Positions 171-57,985 of a stretch of DNA of 61,438 bases are shown piece after piece. How positions within the stretch are numbered: position 1 is the first letter of the stretch; each line of letters starts with the position of its first letter. The position numbers were made by a program, and so were the translations under genes. Below the pieces are notes generated by a model that was not told the origin of the DNA, searched no databases, and saw only the letters and a program-made list of their open reading frames with translations. The stretch covers positions 1 to 61,438 of the forward strand of contig JAFZAP010000068.1 of NCBI GenBank assembly GCA_017557185.1, given 5' to 3'. This stretch comes from Prevotella sp. (GTDB taxonomy: Bacteria; Bacteroidota; Bacteroidia; Bacteroidales; Bacteroidaceae).

Positions 171-368
171 AGCATTGTCGATAAACACTGATGGCAATGC
201 TTTCGCATCGCTACTTCTATGTTTTTAGATGTGGGGAGCAATGCTCCAGCAATCCTATAGCAATGCTCTAGCAGTCCTATAACAATGCTCTAGCAGTCCG
301 AAAGCAATGCTCCAGCCGCCCGAAAGCAATGCTCCGGCTCTCTGAAACGATTGCTCTGGCGCTTTGTG
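171..368 (-). repeat. 22-bp tandem repeat array A
   Basis: Units begin at 171, 193, (215, degenerate), 237, 259, 281, 303, 325 and 347, an exact 22-bp period. The shared core is AGCAATGCTC(C/T), a near-perfect dyad; the other half of each unit is array-specific (AGCAGTCCTAT or similar). The array lies just beyond the likely terminator of the leftward cutC operon. Nothing coding is convincing in 1-396; the first 130 bases are A-rich with a small GCAGC/GCTGC hairpin and a GGCGGCGGCC run. Confidence 0.85.
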
Positions 369-13056: not shown

Positions 13057-13116
13057 TATTCACATTCTTTCTCCTAATAGGGTAACACAGTTCTTTGGTC
13101 CTGACAAGTTGGTTAG

Positions 13117-13204
13117 AGCATGTCTCTGTATGTTGTGGAGCATGCCTCTGTATGCTATAGAACATGTCTCTATATGTTGTATGCATGGTTTTGTGGTCTT
13201 GAAG
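13117..13204 (+). repeat. 22-bp tandem repeat array B
   Basis: Units begin at 13117, 13139 and 13161, with a decayed fourth at 13183, each AGCATGTCTCTGTATGTTGT or close to it. The period is exactly 22 bp, as in arrays A and C, and the unit resembles AGCAATGCTCTGTAACC of array C. It begins about 60 bases after the OmpA terminator. Confidence 0.75.
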
Positions 13205-13350: not shown

Positions 13351-13425
13351 GGGCGTTTAGCTCAGCTGGTTTAGAGCATCTGCCTTACAAGCAGAGGGTC
13401 GGCGGTTCGAATCCGTCAACGCCCA
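13351..13425 (+). tRNA. tRNA-Val (TAC)
   Basis: A complete cloverleaf without encoded CCA. The acceptor GGGCGTT pairs with AACGCCC, the anticodon stem is TCTGC/GCAGA around the loop CTTACAA, and the T arm is GGCGG-TTCGAAT-CCGTC. The anticodon TAC reads valine codons. It is identical to the copy at 13604. It has its own promoter and terminator. Confidence 0.96.
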
Positions 13426-13436
13426 CTTGGGGTGTT

Positions 13437-13603: not shown

Positions 13604-13678
13604 GGGCGTTTAGCTCAGCTGGTTTAGAGCATCTGCCTTACAAGCAGAGGGTCGGCGGTTCGAATCCGTCAACGCCCA
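13604..13678 (+). tRNA. tRNA-Val (TAC), second copy
   Basis: Identical over all 75 bases to the tRNA at 13351. It lies 118 bases upstream of purB with no hairpin-plus-T terminator between them, so the tRNA may be processed from a purB transcript. Confidence 0.96.
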
Positions 13679-13796
13679 CGAAGAAGTCTGCCATTCGATG
13701 ATGAAACGCAGGCGTATGCATAAGACAAGGATAATCTTTAGTAAGAATCATACAAGGATAAGAGTTTAGGATAAAGTATTATAATACGAAGCATTC

Positions 13797-15247: not shown

Positions 15248-16702
15248 ATGAATCAGGAGAATGACAACAAGCAGGTGGATAACACTGCTGAGATGAGCGA
15301 GAATGGCCGTGAAGGCTATGTACCCGCAAGTAATTATCAGAGTAAGGCAACGGACAAACCACAGCGTCCGCGTATACATACGCAGCGTGCCTATAGTAGT
15401 GAACATGGACGCGCTGAAAGCGAAGGATTCCGCCCCGAAGGATTCGGAAGCGGACTTCAGCAGGGAACTCAACGTCCCTATCGCCCCCGTTTCAACAGCC
15501 AGGGACAGGGCTATCAGCCCCGCCAGCAGGGCGGTTATCGTCCCCGTTACAATGCCGAAGGCGAACAGCAGGGCTACCAGCCCCGCCAGCAGGGTGGTTA
15601 TCAGCCCCGCTATAATGCTGAAGGCGAGCAGCAGGGCTATCAGCCCCGCCAGCAGGGTGGCTACCGTCCCCGCTACAATGCCGAGGGTGAGCAGCAGGGC
15701 TACCAGCCCCGTCAGCAGGGTGGTTATCAGCCTCGCCAGCAGCAGGGCTTCCGTCCGCGCTATGGCAATGGTCAGCAGCAGGGTGGCTATCGTCCCCGCT
15801 ATAATGGTCAGCAGGGTGGCTATCAGCCTCGTCAGCAGGGTGGTGGCTATCAGTCGCGTCAGCAGGGCGGCTACAATCCTTACGGAGGAGGCTATCGCCA
15901 GCAGCGCACGCCCGGCTATAATCCCAATGCCAAGTACAGCATGAAGAAGCGCATCGAGTATAAGGAGGAGCACATCGATCCCAACGAGCCCATCCGTCTG
16001 AACAAGTTCCTGGCCAATGCTGGTGTCTGCTCGCGTCGCGAAGCCGACGACTTCATCCAGGCTGGCGTTGTTCTCGTCAATGGCGAAGTGGTCAAGGAGC
16101 TCGGAACGAAGGTGAAGCGCACCGACAATGTTGTCTTCCACGACCAGCCCGTCACACTCGAGAAGAAAGTCTACGTGCTGCTCAACAAGCCTAAGGACAC
16201 CGTCACAACTAGCGACGATCCCCAGCAGCGCAAGACTGTTATGGATCTCGTCAAGGATGCCTGCCCTGAGCGCATCTATCCTGTTGGCCGCCTCGACCGC
16301 AACACTACGGGTGTACTGCTCTTGACCAACGATGGCGACTTGGCATCTAAGCTCACTCATCCGAAGTTCCTTAAGAAGAAGGTCTATCACGTTTATCTCG
16401 ACAAGAATGTAACCGCTCACGATATCCAGCAGATTGCCGATGGAATCACCCTCGACGATGGTGAGGTGCATGCTGATGCTATCGCCTATGCCAGCGATAC
16501 CGACAAGAGCCAGGTGGGCATTGAGATTCACTCGGGTAAGAACCGCATCGTGCGCCGTATCTTCGAAAGCCTCGGCTACCGTGTTGTGAAACTCGACCGC
16601 GTGCAGTTTGCAGGACTCACCAAGAAGAGCCTGCGTCGCGGCGACTGGCGCTTCCTCACCGAGAAGGAAGTCGAGATGCTCCGCATGGGTGCCTTCGAGT
16701 AA
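15248..16702 (+). CDS. RluB/RsuA-type rRNA pseudouridine synthase with long repetitive N-terminal tail
   Basis: A 484-residue protein. The C-terminal half is a normal RsuA/RluB-family enzyme: an S4 RNA-binding domain at about 249-295 (RLNKFLANAGVCSRREAD) and the catalytic domain with aspartate D350 in VGRLDRNTTG. Such enzymes convert one uridine in rRNA to pseudouridine. The first 245 residues are predicted disordered and very rich in Q, G, Y, R and P. They include a 21-residue repeat (QGYQPRQQGGYRPRYNAEGEQ) starting at residues 87, 108, 129 and 150, then looser GGYQPRQQ copies. The tail resembles RGG/YG-rich RNA-binding or condensate-forming segments. The specific uridine cannot be assigned from sequence alone. 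Confidence 0.9.
   Translation: MNQENDNKQVDNTAEMSENGREGYVPASNYQSKATDKPQRPRIHTQRAYSSEHGRAESEGFRPEGFGSGLQQGTQRPYRPRFNSQGQGYQPRQQGGYRPRYNAEGEQQGYQPRQQGGYQPRYNAEGEQQGYQPRQQGGYRPRYNAEGEQQGYQPRQQGGYQPRQQQGFRPRYGNGQQQGGYRPRYNGQQGGYQPRQQGGGYQSRQQGGYNPYGGGYRQQRTPGYNPNAKYSMKKRIEYKEEHIDPNEPIRLNKFLANAGVCSRREADDFIQAGVVLVNGEVVKELGTKVKRTDNVVFHDQPVTLEKKVYVLLNKPKDTVTTSDDPQQRKTVMDLVKDACPERIYPVGRLDRNTTGVLLLTNDGDLASKLTHPKFLKKKVYHVYLDKNVTAHDIQQIADGITLDDGEVHADAIAYASDTDKSQVGIEIHSGKNRIVRRIFESLGYRVVKLDRVQFAGLTKKSLRRGDWRFLTEKEVEMLRMGAFE
15506..15739 (+). repeat. 63-bp coding tandem repeat
   Basis: Three full 63-bp units and a partial fourth inside the pseudouridine synthase gene, encoding a 21-residue unit. Units differ mostly at third positions and by R/Q swaps. 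Confidence 0.9.
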
Positions 16703-22899: not shown

Positions 22900-23997
22900 A
22901 TGAAATTTGTTAAGTACCTTTTCGTATCCCTGTTCCTCGCTGTTGGCATGACAGCTAACGCACAGGCTACCTATACGGCTGCTGACGGAACAGAATATCA
23001 GTTCAAGAAGCACGCTTTCCTCAACCTCGAGGGTGGTGTGCAGGAAACACTTGGTGAAGCAAAGTTCTCTGATCTTCTTTCTCCGAACGTACAGCTCGGC
23101 CTTGGCTATCAGTTCAGCCCCGTCTTCGGTGCTCGCCTCCAGGCTAACGGCTGGCAGAGCAAGGGTGGTTTCAACGAGAACGCCAATGTAGTCTACAAGT
23201 ACAAGTATGTTGCTCCCGGTCTGGACTTCATGTTCAACCTGTCGAACCTGTTCTGTGGCTGGAATCCCAAGCGCGTGTTCAACCTCACCGCTTTCCTCGG
23301 TGCTGGTGCAAACATCGGCTTTGACAACGACGAGGCTGTTGGTCTTAAGACCCAGTTCCCCTTCCGTTATCTCTGGGAAGACACACAGATTCTTCCCTTC
23401 GGACGTGGTGGTCTGGAGGCTTCGTTCCGTCTGAGCGATGCTGTTCGCTTCGTCCTCGAGGCTAACGCCAACATCACTACCGATAAGTACAACTCCAAGA
23501 AGGCCGACAACCCCGACTGGTATTTCAACGCACTCGCTGGTTTCCGCATCAACCTCGGCAAGAGCTACACCAAGGTGGAGCCTCCTGTGATTATTCCCGA
23601 GCCGGAGCCCGAGCCCGTGAAGGTTGTTGAGGAGAAGCCCGTTGTGAAGCCCGAGCCCAAGCCTGTAAAGATTGAGCCCATGCGCCGCGATGTATTCTTC
23701 ACCATCAACAGCACAAAGGTTGTTGAGACCGAAGAGGCTAAGGTTCGCGACATCGTCGACTACCTGAACAAGTATCCGAAGGCAAAGGTCAACGTAACTG
23801 GTTATGCCGATGCTGGTACAGGTAACGACCGCATCAACGACCGTCTGGCCGCTGGTCGTGCCGATGTTGTTTACACTCTCCTCACCGAGAAGTACAACAT
23901 CCCCGCTGACCGTATCACGAAGGACAGCAAGGGTTCGCGCGTACAGCCGTTCGCCGAGAACGACCTGAACCGTGTTACCATCTGTATTGCTGAGTAA
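22900..23997 (+). CDS. OmpA family protein with proline-rich linker
   Basis: A 365-residue outer-membrane protein: signal peptide (MKFVKYLFVSLFLAVGMTANAQ), an 8-strand-type beta-barrel at about 30-225, a Pro/Glu/Val/Lys linker at about 226-262 (PEPEPEPVKVVEEKPVVKPE), and an OmpA peptidoglycan-binding domain at about 263-365 (DVFFTINSTKV, VTGYADAGTGN, LAAGRADVV, LNRVTICI). The linker likely spans the periplasm. Codon bias is strong. A strong terminator and the 22-bp array C follow it. Confidence 0.92.
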   Translation: MKFVKYLFVSLFLAVGMTANAQATYTAADGTEYQFKKHAFLNLEGGVQETLGEAKFSDLLSPNVQLGLGYQFSPVFGARLQANGWQSKGGFNENANVVYKYKYVAPGLDFMFNLSNLFCGWNPKRVFNLTAFLGAGANIGFDNDEAVGLKTQFPFRYLWEDTQILPFGRGGLEASFRLSDAVRFVLEANANITTDKYNSKKADNPDWYFNALAGFRINLGKSYTKVEPPVIIPEPEPEPVKVVEEKPVVKPEPKPVKIEPMRRDVFFTINSTKVVETEEAKVRDIVDYLNKYPKAKVNVTGYADAGTGNDRINDRLAAGRADVVYTLLTEKYNIPADRITKDSKGSRVQPFAENDLNRVTICIAE

Positions 23998-24018
23998 TCG
24001 CAAAGCAAATAATTATAA

Positions 24019-24053
24019 AAGGTGCCTGCATTTTTATGTAGGCACCTTTTTTT
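24019..24053 (+). terminator. Intrinsic terminator after second OmpA gene
   Basis: A 12-bp stem (AAGGTGCCTGCA with TGTAGGCACCTT) and TTTTTA loop, followed by a T run. Confidence 0.93.
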
Positions 24054-24069
24054 GTCGTTGTCTCGATAG

Positions 24070-24289
24070 AGCATTGCTCCGTACCTTGCAGAGCAATGCT
24101 CCGTACTGTATAGAGCAATGCTCTGTAACCTACAGAGCAATGTTCTGTAACCTCTGGAGCAGTGCTTTAGCATGTCAAGTCCAGTGCTTTGGGAGTCTTG
24201 GGGCAATGCTTTAGGAACCTGTTTGCAGTGCTTTTAGGGTCTGAGTGCTCTGTTTTCAGTGTCTGGGAGCATTGTTTTTCAAGTCTGGG
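24070..24289 (+). repeat. 22-bp tandem repeat array C
   Basis: Units begin at 24070, 24092, 24114, 24136, 24158, 24180, 24202, 24224, (24246, degenerate) and 24268: ten positions in an exact 22-bp register. Early units read AGCAATGCTCTGTAACCTACAG or similar; later ones decay to CAGTGCTTTGGG types. It fills most of the 534-base gap before the next gene and starts 16 bases after the terminator T run. Confidence 0.9.
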
Positions 24290-24380
24290 TGTGATGTCAG
24301 GAATTTCTCTGCTATGTCTTTACTATTTTATGGAAAAACAAGAAAAATGCGATAGAATTTGATAAAAATTGAGAAAAAAG

Positions 24381-24411
24381 TTTGCAGAAATGAAAATATT
24401 GATTAAATTTG
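24381..24411 (+). promoter_or_regulatory. Promoter of the 1409-residue secreted protein gene
   Basis: TTTG (24381-24384), a 19-base spacer and TAAATTTG (24404-24411). The leader is about 110 bases. Confidence 0.85.
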
Positions 24412-24531
24412 CAAATTGAAAGATAATTTCTACGCCATAATTGGACTGTTTCAGTCCTGTTTTGGCGTGTGTTAACGTAGGAACTTATATACATCTATTA
24501 TTATTTATTTATTCATTAAACTGTTAAATTT

Positions 24532-27500
24532 ATGAGGTATTTAAAAACACTTTTGGTAGTCATGCTGGCTTTGGTCGGCACTGCTGCCTATGCACAGAAA
24601 GATGCCGATACTGAAACAACAGTGAAGGGTAGTCAGGTCGCTGACGGCACCTTCTACATGTACAATGTTTCAGCAAAGAAGTATCTGTGTGCTAGTGGCT
24701 CGTGGGACACTCATGCTGAGTTAGAGAATGTCCCTGCGCAGCAAATTTTTGTTTCCTTGGAGAATGGAAAGTACAATCTTGGTACCCACCTCAAAGGAAA
24801 TTGGAACAACTACTTCGGCAATGCAGGTGGTGCTCCTTATATGGATCGTCCGAAAGGTGAAGGTCCTTGGGAGCTTATCGAGGCAGAAGCTGAAGGCTAC
24901 GTGGCCTATTACGTGAAAAACAATGCAAACAAGTACCTGTCACTGAATGATAGTCGTGAGCCTGTCTTCACGGAGACTTCAGATGCAACAAGTCTTTGGG
25001 TGTTCTTCTCACTTGATGAGATGAATGCAGCTATGGAGGCTTCTGTTCCCGAGGAGGGCGTTGAAGCTACACAGCTAATTCAAAATGCAGGTTTCCAGAT
25101 TTATTCACAATATGGCCTAGAGAAGTGGACTATCACCAGTTCTGGTGGTAACGTCGCTCGTGGATGGTCGTGGGGTGTTGCCCATACTCAGGAATTCTGG
25201 AACAACACGTTTGAGATCAGTCAGACAATTGGTAACGTGCCCAATGGCCGCTATGCTCTCCGTGTTCAGGGATTCAATCGTATCAATAATAATCCTGAAC
25301 AGAATACTCCGAACGATGCCTTCTATTATGCTAATGATGTACAGGCAAACTTGATGCCTATCGGTGTTCATGCTAAGCAGTATTCCGGTGACTACGCTGT
25401 TGGTGACAAGTGGGCTACGAATAGTCAGGGTGGTGCAGGTGACTATATGCTTGATGGTGGATACCAAAATGGTTTCATCACTTTCGATGTAAGTGACAAC
25501 ACCATTAAGTTTGGAGCTAAGCGTACCAGCCAGGAAGGTGTATGCTGGACAGTCCTTGATAACTTTGAACTTAAGTTCATGGGTAACGAGCCTCTTCTGA
25601 AGGAGCTCATTGACAAGGCAAACGAACTGCTTCCTAACCTTGAAGATCGTTACAAACCCGCTCTTGAGGAGGCTATTGCAGCAGCCCAGGATGTTCTTGA
25701 CAACAAGGGAGATCAGGAGGAAGTGAAGGATGCCCTTCAGGCTCTTCAGGATGCTTATAATGAGGCAGACGCTCTGAATGTTGCCAAGAAGCTTGCTCAG
25801 CAGGTTCTGAATGAATATGATCATGGCAAGTATCCTTATGCATTTAAAGAGGCGTTTGTTGATCCTCTGCGTAAACTTCTTGCCAAGTGCGATAGTGGTG
25901 AGGAATTCGATAGCGAAGAGATGGTTGAAGAACTCACTTATCTGGCACGTGGTGTTGTCACTTCCCATTCATGGGCTGCCCAGCTCTATCTGCAGGGCGA
26001 CGACCATGTGCAACCAGATGCTGGCTACTACTGGATGTACACCTTCGACGAGTGGCTCGATGCTTGGACGATTGAAGGTTGGGGCGAAGAGGCTCTGTCC
26101 GATGAGCCTATGACCGACTACGACGGTAATCAGCCCCTCTACATAGAGCAGGAGTCTGAGGAAGGCTTCAAGGCTGACGTCTATCAGGATATTTATCTCC
26201 CTGCAGGTCGTTACATCCTCACTGCTACGGGTCGTGGTACTAAGGGTGCCTTTGATGATATCGGCGCTCAGGATCCTTCGAGATACTTCCAGGTTTATGT
26301 CTCACAGGTTCCCGCACCTGAATATGGAGATATATTGCAAGCTAAGGGTAATGCTCCTGCAGAGCCTGGTCAGTTCGAGACTCGCTTGATGACGATTCCT
26401 ACTGTTGGTTTCGGCAAGTCTGACGGTGTATTTGGTTATGGTTGGAACGATGCATCCATCATGTTCAACATGAAGTCAGAAGGTTATGTCCGTCTGGGTG
26501 CTCGTGCAGCTACCGATATGAAGGGTAAGGCTTCTGTTTCGAACTTCCGTCTGGCTCGTATGGGCGATGCTACTCTCTACTTCAACGAGTATGAGTCGTT
26601 TGGCGACAAACTCGGCTACATGGAAGTTTACAATGACTATGTGGATTGGGCTTGGATTTATGACCTCTTCTATGGCGAGGGTGCCGGTGAGTACTACCTG
26701 GGTTACGAAAACTGCCCCGCAGACGTACTGCTCCATAAGACGATGGAGGCTGGCAAGTGGTATTCGATTTCTGTACCTGCTAGCATTTCCGAGGCTCAGT
26801 TGGAAGCTCAGTTCGGTGAGGGTACACGTCTGGCATGGCCTGTTTATGGATATGATGTCGAGGGTCTTGCCCGCGTGGTAAACTATTGGAGCTGGGATAT
26901 TTCTGATCCTGACGATGAGAACCGTGTGACCGATGGTATTTGGGCTAACCTGCCTTATCTGATTAAGCCTGCTAAGACCAAGGCCAGCAATCGTTATTCA
27001 TTCAACGATGTTGCGGTTTGCAATGATCCTAACTATACCTATGAGTATTGGCCTCTTGGTTATAGTGAGCAGAATGAGCTGTTCTTGAATTCTCTGGTAT
27101 GGCTTACTGATGACGAGAATCATGTGACCTTCCACGTGAACTACGACTACAAGCCTAGCTTCCCCGACTATTATACAGTTGAGTTCTGTGATACCCTGAA
27201 GTCTTTCACTGCCTATATGACTACTGATGGTGAGGAGGAAATCCTTATTACTATCGATGCTGATGAAACCAATCAGGGCCTTGATGTCCTTTATCAGCAG
27301 ATTAATGATGCTATTGCTCTTGGTCAGCAGAAAGCCACTTGGTATCCCGGCATTCCTGCCGCTATGACGAAGAAACTGACCACTATTCCTTCAATCGAGA
27401 CTGTAGCTGATGCTATTGGAGCAGTATCTAGTATCAGATCTGCTATCCAGGAGGCACAGAAGGCTTACGAGCCCTCTAAGGAGTTCAATGCTTTGATGGC

Positions 27501-28761
27501 TAAGGCTGAGGAGCTGCTTAACTCTGACCACAACGAACTGGTTGCCGGTGCTGATGCTGCCTTCAAGAAGAAGATCGAACAGCTTCAGAAGCGCTTCGAC
27601 ATGCAGCTGAAGGCTGAGCCCATCTATGATCTTATAGAGTCTCTCAAGGCTGCTATTGCTGAGTATAAGGATCAGATCTTCATTGCTGGTACGATTGAGA
27701 CTGGTAAGTACATCCTGCAGAATGTTGCCACTGGTAAGTTCTTCAATGGTGGTAACAGCTGGGGAACTCGTTCTTCGCTCGTTGATCATCCTGAGTACAT
27801 GCTGTTGACCAAGCTTGATGATGGTACTCATAGACTTGAGAGCCGTCAGAACAATGGTGGCGAGCAGTTCTACTTAGGTCCGAACTACTTCGTTGACAAT
27901 GGAACACCGATGCCTCTGACCTTCACTCCGGTTGCTGAGGGTGTCTACACCATCACTTGCACGGGTGAGAGTGGCACTGGCCTCCTTGGCTACGATGGTT
28001 CTACTACTGTTCTCTCTGGAACGCTGACCGATGCTACCAGTGCTGATGCACAGTGGTTCGTAATCTCTGAGGAGAAGATGGCGGCCATGATGGCAGAGGC
28101 TTCTGTCGAGAATCCTGTTGATGTAACGTTCTTCATCAAGGATGCAAACTTCAGCCGCAACAGTCGTGATGCTGATGCTTGGGTCTGGGAGACTGAGAAC
28201 CACAACATCGCAGGTGATAACACGAACTTCTGCGCTGAGTCTTGGACTCACACCTTCGTGCTGTCGCAGGAGCTTGAGCTCCCGAATGGTGTTTACATGC
28301 TGAATGCTCAGGCTGCTCTCACCGACTACACGAATGCTTATGATCAGCGTGATGATTATCCTGTTGTCTATGCAGGTGATGAGACCGTGAAGTTCTGTGA
28401 GATGGAAGAGGCCGATCGTGCAACAAGTATGTCGCAGCTCTCTAACAGCTTCTCTGCTGGCAAGTATTTCGTTGATCCAGTGATTGTCGAGGTTACTGAC
28501 GGCAAGCTGACCATTGGTGCGAAGTGTAATGCTACCGACTACTGGTGCATCTTCGACAACTTCTCGCTGACCTACTTCGCCGATGCTGATATTGACGCTG
28601 TTCGTGCTGCATATCCGAAGAACACGGGTGCTACCACTGGCATCAACGAGGTGAACACTGGTGTGAACACCGGCGCTATCTACAACCTCAATGGTGTACG
28701 TGTGAAGAACATGAACCAGAAGGGCGTTTACATTGTGAACGGTCAGAAGGTTACGAAGTAA
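24532..28761 (+). CDS. Giant secreted multidomain protein with C-terminal sorting-like tail
   Basis: A 1409-residue protein with signal peptide MRYLKTLLVVMLALVGTAAYAQ. Two ricin-like or beta-trefoil-like segments appear at about 37-170 (FYMYNVSAKKYLCAS) and 1055-1180 (GKYILQNVATGKFF). Helical FIVAR-like bundles are at about 350-420 (LIDKANELLPNLEDRYKPAL) and 980-1050. A middle region (about 560-800) has a GRYILTATGRG motif and a beta-sandwich with FGYGWNDAS, shared with the next gene. The last 25 residues (IYNLNGVRVKNMNQKGVYIV and on) resemble a short type IX secretion C-terminal signal. A glycan-binding surface role is plausible from the lectin-like and FIVAR-like parts, but no catalytic motif is seen. 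Confidence 0.82.
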   Translation: MRYLKTLLVVMLALVGTAAYAQKDADTETTVKGSQVADGTFYMYNVSAKKYLCASGSWDTHAELENVPAQQIFVSLENGKYNLGTHLKGNWNNYFGNAGGAPYMDRPKGEGPWELIEAEAEGYVAYYVKNNANKYLSLNDSREPVFTETSDATSLWVFFSLDEMNAAMEASVPEEGVEATQLIQNAGFQIYSQYGLEKWTITSSGGNVARGWSWGVAHTQEFWNNTFEISQTIGNVPNGRYALRVQGFNRINNNPEQNTPNDAFYYANDVQANLMPIGVHAKQYSGDYAVGDKWATNSQGGAGDYMLDGGYQNGFITFDVSDNTIKFGAKRTSQEGVCWTVLDNFELKFMGNEPLLKELIDKANELLPNLEDRYKPALEEAIAAAQDVLDNKGDQEEVKDALQALQDAYNEADALNVAKKLAQQVLNEYDHGKYPYAFKEAFVDPLRKLLAKCDSGEEFDSEEMVEELTYLARGVVTSHSWAAQLYLQGDDHVQPDAGYYWMYTFDEWLDAWTIEGWGEEALSDEPMTDYDGNQPLYIEQESEEGFKADVYQDIYLPAGRYILTATGRGTKGAFDDIGAQDPSRYFQVYVSQVPAPEYGDILQAKGNAPAEPGQFETRLMTIPTVGFGKSDGVFGYGWNDASIMFNMKSEGYVRLGARAATDMKGKASVSNFRLARMGDATLYFNEYESFGDKLGYMEVYNDYVDWAWIYDLFYGEGAGEYYLGYENCPADVLLHKTMEAGKWYSISVPASISEAQLEAQFGEGTRLAWPVYGYDVEGLARVVNYWSWDISDPDDENRVTDGIWANLPYLIKPAKTKASNRYSFNDVAVCNDPNYTYEYWPLGYSEQNELFLNSLVWLTDDENHVTFHVNYDYKPSFPDYYTVEFCDTLKSFTAYMTTDGEEEILITIDADETNQGLDVLYQQINDAIALGQQKATWYPGIPAAMTKKLTTIPSIETVADAIGAVSSIRSAIQEAQKAYEPSKEFNALMAKAEELLNSDHNELVAGADAAFKKKIEQLQKRFDMQLKAEPIYDLIESLKAAIAEYKDQIFIAGTIETGKYILQNVATGKFFNGGNSWGTRSSLVDHPEYMLLTKLDDGTHRLESRQNNGGEQFYLGPNYFVDNGTPMPLTFTPVAEGVYTITCTGESGTGLLGYDGSTTVLSGTLTDATSADAQWFVISEEKMAAMMAEASVENPVDVTFFIKDANFSRNSRDADAWVWETENHNIAGDNTNFCAESWTHTFVLSQELELPNGVYMLNAQAALTDYTNAYDQRDDYPVVYAGDETVKFCEMEEADRATSMSQLSNSFSAGKYFVDPVIVEVTDGKLTIGAKCNATDYWCIFDNFSLTYFADADIDAVRAAYPKNTGATTGINEVNTGVNTGAIYNLNGVRVKNMNQKGVYIVNGQKVTK

Positions 28762-57799: not shown

Positions 57800-57944
57800 G
57801 TTTTCGTTGCCTAGTTTTTTTGTTTTCCCCTTCTCCTGCCCGATACACCTTGCACCCGCTATGACTTGTTTTTCACAACGCTATGGGTTGTCACTTGTAA
57901 AGCATTGAGTTTTGAGGCGTAACTCATAGAGTTCTGACCAAAAA

Positions 57945-57985
57945 CGGGGGCCTCTCCCCCCGCCCTCCCCCATAGGGAGGGAGCC
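57945..57985. repeat. GC-rich palindromic arm, intergenic
   Basis: A CCTCTCCCCC...CCTCCCCCATAGGGAGGGAG stretch is of the same palindromic type as the in-gene elements, here outside genes and next to the dispersed repeat. Confidence 0.6.

Follow-up and report, generated by a model that had tools for sequence, protein, structure and literature searches.

Downstream of an OmpA-family gene in Prevotella sp. (assembly GCA_017557185.1, contig JAFZAP010000068.1), ten palindromic units follow one another at an exact step of 22 bp. This raises the question of what such a row of dyads is for, and which of the three origins suggested in the original prediction fits it best: a multi-site platform for a dimeric protein, a structured RNA tail, or a product of replication slippage. 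The window, that is, the whole stretch of DNA analysed, spans 61,438 nucleotides. Within it, the OmpA-family gene (22900..23997, + strand) is followed by an intrinsic-terminator-like hairpin with a T-run (24020..24053, + strand, found by direct reading), then, after about 15 bp, by the array (24068..24278, no strand assigned), and then by an open reading frame of 1409 aa (24532..28761, + strand).

The array, identified by direct reading, Tandem Repeats Finder and a shuffle test, has ten 22-bp positions with the core AGCAWTGCT flanked by RR and YY; we call this type-1. Cores start at 24070 + 22k (k = 0-9) and match AGCAWTGCT at 9, 9, 9, 8, 8, 6, 8, 7, 5 and 8 of its nine letters, while the two register positions before the array and the three after it score just 2-4 of 9. 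A score of at least 6/9 is reached at nine of the ten positions, compared to a mean of 2.0 and a maximum of 4 when the intergenic region was dinucleotide-shuffled 1000 times. Self-identity reaches 0.60 and 0.58 at lags 22 and 44, against 0.15-0.35 at the remaining lags between 15 and 49, and Tandem Repeats Finder reports periods of 22 and 44. The ten-position array is therefore real and its period holds on re-measurement. The units had also been described as decaying with distance from the terminator, which is true of this array, but several others are most uniform centrally and degraded at both edges.

The 22-bp period is not peculiar to this locus. In a 460-kb sample of the source genome (the window, the whole of contig C2 and parts of C42 and C7), lags 22, 44 and 66 gave 23, 20 and 18 repeat regions, while any other lag from 9 to 69 gave 0-6, and lag 23 none. 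Lag 22 also leads in the samples from genomes G219 and G063; in that from G340 it shares first place with lag 21 (7 regions each). A pattern of two cores, allowing up to two mismatches, had 375 forward matches in the source genome and 4 when reversed. In the spacing tests, reversed controls gave 0 hits in the first samples, 1 in the test of G340 contig C22 and an extended stretch of G219 contig C1, and 1 in the test of G061. Lag counts, shuffles and reversed patterns together rule out a chance origin of the arrays.

Repeat and core scans found two further arrays in the window. The second (191..357, type-1, unstranded) follows the same 22-bp scheme, with cores at 193 and from 237 to 347, and adjoins the 3' end of a minus-strand CutC-family gene. 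The third (13115..13195, unstranded) is short, with a variant core AGCATGYCT at 13117 and 13139 and AACATGTCT at 13161, and lies between an OmpA-family gene and a tRNA-Val. Tandem Repeats Finder likewise reports period 22 at 237-335 and 13114-13181. A register scan added a weak, degenerate and uncertain stretch (57849..57946, unstranded), which was missed by a detector combining cores with lag 22. Two neighbouring tRNA-Val (TAC) genes (13351-13426 and 13604-13679) stand beside the third array, and tandem repeats of 63 bp and 27 bp occupy 15506-15873, within a predicted gene (15248-16702).

The conserved part of the unit is a dyad of 13 bp, RR-AGCA-W-TGCT-YY, joined by weakly conserved linkers (122 units from the source genome, 41 from G340 and 63 from G219), in agreement with the palindromic core first proposed. 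Conservation covers unit positions 1-11 and 21-22, where 10, 11, 21 and 22 are kept as pyrimidine or purine. The linkers, as had been noticed, are similar inside one array and different from array to array. In the same units of the three genomes, compensatory pairing of opposite core columns did not exceed the expectation from column frequencies, in a test that is descriptive because units of one array are not independent. The outer positions keep purine/pyrimidine symmetry (0.80-0.98), yet show no reliable complementarity; one linker column pair, 13-19, is complementary slightly above expectation (0.41 vs 0.35, 0.46 vs 0.37 and 0.37 vs 0.31 in the three genomes). Since symmetry without covariation suggests recognition of double-stranded DNA rather than a maintained stem, the unit pattern points to a dyad read as duplex. 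The cores had been placed on one side of the helix; at 10.5 bp per turn, a 22-bp step drifts by about 34 degrees, so that this is only approximately so.

Within the same 22-bp frame we found AGCAWTGCT, TTAASTTAA, ATATRATAT and other cores, sometimes inside one array. The most elaborate form is a composite in which AT-rich AAATTAASTTAATTT units (type-2) occupy the centre and type-1-like units lie on either side in register, an arrangement seen initially in seven arrays (six from the source genome, one from G340). Its architecture is approximately 4+6+4 units, that is, 14 units or 308 bp. There are at least 38 composite loci in the source genome (one of them a partial match), and at least 38 plus one partial match in G340; these are lower bounds, as scoring covered 40 of 43 initial candidates in each genome. 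Exactly six type-2 units were present at 42 of 48 composite loci (26 from the source genome, 22 from G340), the other six having 5 (at a locus truncated by the end of its contig), 7, 7, 8, 8 and 9. The 42 six-unit loci have about four type-1 units per side, beyond which information content falls, and in their consensus the linkers of the two sides are inverse complements of each other, making the element an overall inverted repeat. Copies run in both directions along contigs and thus give no sign of a replichore-oriented signal. Composites were also seen at, or within about 60 bases of, the ends of source contigs C18, C33, C51 and C69; assemblies probably break there, a further reason to treat copy numbers as minima.

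In the source genome and in G340, five units with the third core, ATATRATAT, make up an array upstream of rplM. G340 carries additional cores, for example an ACCAC...GTGGT dyad, and 22-bp arrays with other cores occur in other members of the genus, such as G061 and G215. Several other repeats came to light. In G010 (L163, around 4371 and 19325), dyads of the TTTTAC...GTAAAA type recur at roughly 22-bp steps, with a core differing from that of the window array. Near rplM in G045 (L198, around 2438) and G062 (L191, around 942) there are 23-bp repeats of the CACTTGTAAACTTGTAAACTGTT type or its complement. A dispersed stretch of about 94 bp with CCCAGGGCGCTGCCCTGGGC (L089:4262-4355, source contig C7) matches several loci in G340, G219, G063 and G215 and has no core in common with the 22-bp arrays.

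Palindromic units could also matter as RNA. If transcribed, the arrays would form long hairpins serving as terminators, stabilisers of 3' ends or RNase III substrates, and the window array does fold well as RNA (z -5.7). One upstream terminator-like stem includes a core, many arrays follow the 3' ends of genes, and linkers extend the stems in some arrays (to z -4.5, in arrays without type-2 units). Yet the lack of compensatory variation between core half-sites is hard to reconcile with a selected stem, and the linkers contribute modestly: when they alone were shuffled in 28 arrays, folding weakened by a mean z of -1.2 and -1.5 on the two strands (-3 to -4.5 in some arrays); the 28 include three composites, to which this shuffle does not do justice. 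Moreover, the window array sits beyond the terminator-like hairpin, and nine of 60 arrays lie between divergent genes. We therefore consider a role in RNA or single-strand structure, including the structured tail initially suggested, rather improbable. Membership of a known RNA family was rejected: all nine Rfam matches in 23900-24540 were weak and below the gathering score.

Sixty arrays could be placed in gaps between genes, 36 of them tandem, 15 convergent and 9 divergent (background gaps: 251, 69 and 90); six of the 66 arrays in the set lie at edges or within a called gene, according to gene calls from our own ORF scoring. The proposed clustering at 3' ends is thus partial. Dyads clustered two helical turns apart are typical of operators, and the arrays might be clustered transcription-factor sites for the adjoining genes. 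Some composites are indeed found 5' of gene starts, and the array at rplM has been conserved. Nevertheless, the flanking proteins, 15 of 20 with a Pfam family, are mixed and unrelated, a quarter of the placed arrays (15/60) are convergent, and a regulon would not produce even spacing along the chromosome (see below), which makes local operators a very unlikely explanation.

Across the genus, exact pairs of type-1 cores at 22-bp spacing occur in 18 of 398 genomes (source 70, G340 106, G219 33, G063 20, remaining genomes 0-7 forward), several of which have a single match on one strand that may be due to chance; the reversed pattern was found in 2 of 398, in one of them five times. Two outcomes had been named beforehand as fatal to the original prediction, the absence of such arrays from relatives and the loss of the period; neither occurs. 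Type-2 pairs, with up to three mismatches, were detected in 7 of 398 genomes (source 180, G340 186, G006 29, G215 9, G261 7, G331 5, G063 2), the reversed control being zero throughout. Type-1 pairs are missing from 380 of the 398 genomes and type-2 pairs from 391, which would make the system recent, restricted to a lineage or quick to change. A scan for three cores in one genome per species (84,980 species) returned 42 stretches. Metagenome bins assigned to Prevotellaceae, Prevotella or Bacteroidales supplied 39 of them, with RUG178 contributing many; the other three came from Hoylesella nanceiensis, Spirulina and Xenorhabdus. The Spirulina and Xenorhabdus matches were rejected as relatives, as both have near-identical units at one locus and look like ordinary tandem repeats. 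The latter, on a 4.6-kb contig of Xenorhabdus mauleonii (L135:207-350), consists of near-identical 22-bp repeats with the core GGCAATGCT, possibly plasmid iterons.

The arrays are not scattered at random. The combined detector (core plus lag 22) identified 66 arrays in 13 stretches of the source genome, G340 and G219. Spacing was computed on the 11 stretches with at least two arrays (65 arrays, 1.38 Mb, 54 gaps): the mean gap is 20.6 kb and the coefficient of variation (CV) of spacing is 0.41, compared to 0.91 +- 0.11 for random placement (0/10,000) and 0.89 +- 0.11 when random placement is limited to intergenic gaps (0/5000). Evenness is present in each genome, with weaker support in G219 (source 0.39, 0 random sets as even; G340 0.41, 0; G219 0.41, 37/10,000). 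In the same DNA, tandem repeats with other periods, including those in coding regions, are distributed randomly (65 repeats, CV 1.06, expected 1.06). At least 11 further gaps on source contigs outside the 460 kb, among the matches listed, all measure 10.7-34 kb; three of these (C112, C52) also entered the analysis of composites. Composites alone are more even than random as well (G340 CV 0.41, P 0.001; source 0.44, P 0.027).

The result depends in part on how arrays are detected. With cores alone, the first samples gave CV 0.34 for the source genome (17 gaps, 0/4000), 0.31 for G340 (P 0.0005) and 0.51 for G219 (P 0.07), and the extended stretch of G219 contig C1 gave 0.51 (P 0.10). In the held-out 359-kb G340 contig C22, the core-only detector found 12 arrays with CV 0.69 (P 0.16), without the predicted regularity, and a minimum-gap P of 0.007. 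A lag-22 scan of this contig revealed more arrays inside the long gaps, and with the combined detector its CV alone is 0.38 (1/5000), a figure to be read knowing that this detector was chosen after the core-only C22 result, lag 22 being the original discovery criterion. One array of this contig, at 115.7 kb, resembles a TCTCAACAGC repeat of low complexity and is a doubtful member, although it was kept in the counts. Leaving out unclassified cores, the 51 arrays of types 1, 2 and 3 have CV 0.51 vs 0.90 (0/4000), and type-1 alone 0.49 vs 0.95 (1/4000). In the combined-detector set, lag 21 gave 22 matches, lag 22 gave 63 and lag 23 gave 1; those at lag 21 presumably reflect coding repeats and were left out of the counts. 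Outside the array-rich group, the complete chromosome of G061 had 7 arrays in 400 kb (2.4% masked) with no regularity (CV 0.86, P 0.63). Regularity across the genus is consequently unsupported, and even spacing is established for the array-rich group only.

Arrays with different cores also keep apart. A type-1 array lies less than 10 kb from an array of any other type in 2 cases where 12.6 are expected (0/10,000 shifts), a type-2 array within 10 kb of other types 1 time vs 6.6 (P 0.002), and type-3 plus unclassified arrays 4 times vs 9.4 (P 0.005). Such avoidance between different cores argues against exclusion by sequence identity and would be expected if the arrays had a function in common or were placed by one and the same process. 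The spacing also bears on whether the arrays are simply minisatellites, functionless palindromic 22-bp units expanding and contracting by replication slippage in spacers. Their uniform centres and degenerate edges, the near-identity of some neighbouring units, and their variable presence among orthologous spacers would be expected of them, and slippage probably does explain why linkers are homogeneous within arrays. But neutral slippage would predict neither one period shared by several cores, nor six type-2 units at 42 of 48 loci, nor evenly spaced arrays next to randomly spaced repeats of other periods. As a full account it seems improbable to us, and the slippage origin first suggested would hold for the linkers while leaving the spacing and the six-unit composite unexplained.

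Comparison of orthologous regions revealed both conservation and turnover. Flank similarity paired nine of the 26 source composites with a counterpart among the 22 of G340, four by both flanks and five by one. In these pairs the arrays are 0.85 identical, with core positions (0.76-0.98) better kept than linker positions (0.57-0.87); identity of the flanks is 0.38 on the left, past 88 bp, and 0.50 on the right, past 155 bp. The array identity across species could stem from gene conversion among copies instead of selection. The five-unit rplM array has few differences between the source genome and G340, and the approximately 150 bp on either side are far more diverged; in the same spacer, the 200 bp adjoining rplM match the array in conservation. 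Elsewhere arrays change: 3' of an M48 peptidase gene, the source genome has a composite and a RUG178 record an eight-unit type-1 array. The composite in the source spacer between trmB and an aminotransferase gene is absent from G340, G063 and G215, and G219 has a type-1-like array upstream of trmB. Orthologous spacers without the element have diverged too far for an empty site to be recognised by eye. Stretches with lag-22 identity of at least 0.60 were found around rplM in 5 of 29 genomes and around trmB in 5 of 29. Along the collinear contigs C42 (source) and C22 (G340), two of the three composites have a counterpart; among the five type-1 arrays on C42, three map to places without an array in G340 and the other two are ambiguous. 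Arrays fixed at orthologous spots are thus only partly the rule.

Such turnover, together with the dispersal of the composite at 38 or more loci per genome in two species, its inverted-repeat consensus and its absence from some orthologous spacers, would suit a family of mobile repeats, MITE-like or bound by a transposase, whose spacing arose because nearby insertion is disfavoured or close copies are lost by recombination. A precedent is BrickBuilt of Porphyromonas gingivalis ATCC 33277, described as a MITE of 19 copies with a tandemly repeated 23-nt unit and leader and tail segments; it has terminal inverted repeats similar to the ends of an IS, and just 4 of 19 copies keep both of them intact (PMC4596501). 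It resembles our arrays in being intergenic and dispersed in a Bacteroidales genome, with short tandem repeats, and differs in that our unit is of 22 bp, is a dyad and has several cores. Against mobility, family immunity or homology-driven deletion would not make arrays with different cores avoid each other, and the pairing of nine composites by their flanks indicates positions shared between species. Pfam searches found no transposase or integrase among the 20 flanking proteins. Y1_Tnp occurs in 9 of 12 genomes, with none in the array-bearing G063, and its presence does not track array richness; Mu_transpos_C, sought as a sign of Mu/Tn7-like transposases, had no match in the 12 genomes, although this search was silent in control genomes too and carries no weight. 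We regard a mobile origin as unlikely, if still deserving serious weight.

We also compared the arrays with other known repeats. REP/BIME elements of the GTAG and CGTC superfamilies are palindromes of 20-40 bp with a terminal tag tetranucleotide, intergenic, dispersed and sometimes tandem, as our arrays are (PMC3733652); ours differ in their 13-bp dyad, fixed 22-bp frame and absence of pair covariation. A RAYT/REP system was rejected on the lack of stem-keeping compensatory changes, the distribution of Y1_Tnp saying little either way. A CRISPR array was rejected as well, as linkers are alike within arrays and cores vary, and repeat plus linker (22 bp) is shorter than a CRISPR repeat alone (24-48 bp; PMC3733652). 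In the papers listed, judged by title and the start of the abstract, with subscription papers and preprints outside the scope, no arrays of this form are described. Plasmid iterons and ParR-type centromeres are phased short protein-binding repeats at single loci beside rep or par genes; the phasing is shared, whereas the arrays occupy dozens of chromosomal loci beside unrelated genes.

The closest parallel is with the sites of chromosome-organising proteins. In E. coli, matS is a 13-bp site present 23 times in the Ter region, and the SlmA site one of 12 bp present 50 times (PMC3116907). Like the 13-bp dyads of our arrays, both are short palindromes dispersed on a chromosome. Unlike them, the dyads here are organised in 22-bp-register arrays with several cores on every sampled contig of the source genome and G340, and a profile search found MatP in none of 12 genus genomes (with the control match in E. 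coli). On the reading we favour, the arrays would work like matS or SlmA sites and belong to neither system. To our knowledge, apart from ParB-parS, no site-specific chromosome-organising system is established for Bacteroidota; among the papers listed on this subject, titles and the beginnings of abstracts likewise describe none.

Among the three original suggestions, the platform for a dimeric protein fits best, given the 13-bp dyad, the absence of compensation, the conservation of cores over linkers and the even spacing; the protein itself is putative. The strongest competitors are those discussed above, mobile repeats under exclusion, hairpin function and neutral slippage, each of them less probable. 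We tentatively favour, at a little under even confidence, that the arrays are double-stranded multi-site platforms for a putative dimeric protein that helps to organise the chromosome. Dyad sites every 22 bp, about two helical turns, would seat such a protein cooperatively on roughly one helix face, and the register, not any one sequence, would be what is preserved. Slippage or unequal recombination would multiply and homogenise units within an array. Platforms about every 20 kb, as in the sampled stretches of the source genome and its two close relatives, would anchor or bound nucleoid domains. Arrays would come and go at single spacers, spacing being maintained. More speculatively, and with less confidence than in the platforms themselves, the arrays may act as a chromosome "ruler", with approximately one platform per 20 kb set by the 22-bp register, where positions and cores turn over and spacing is held.

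The evenly spaced arrays offer a direct handle on these ideas, since array DNA can be used to fish for the protein and contact maps can be compared with the predicted boundaries. If true, the "ruler" would be an undescribed system that partitions the chromosome of a bacterium into loops or domains of approximately the same size, in which new cores would arise within old arrays, much as centromere satellites do. It would then offer a bacterial example of changing sequence under a conserved form and spacing.
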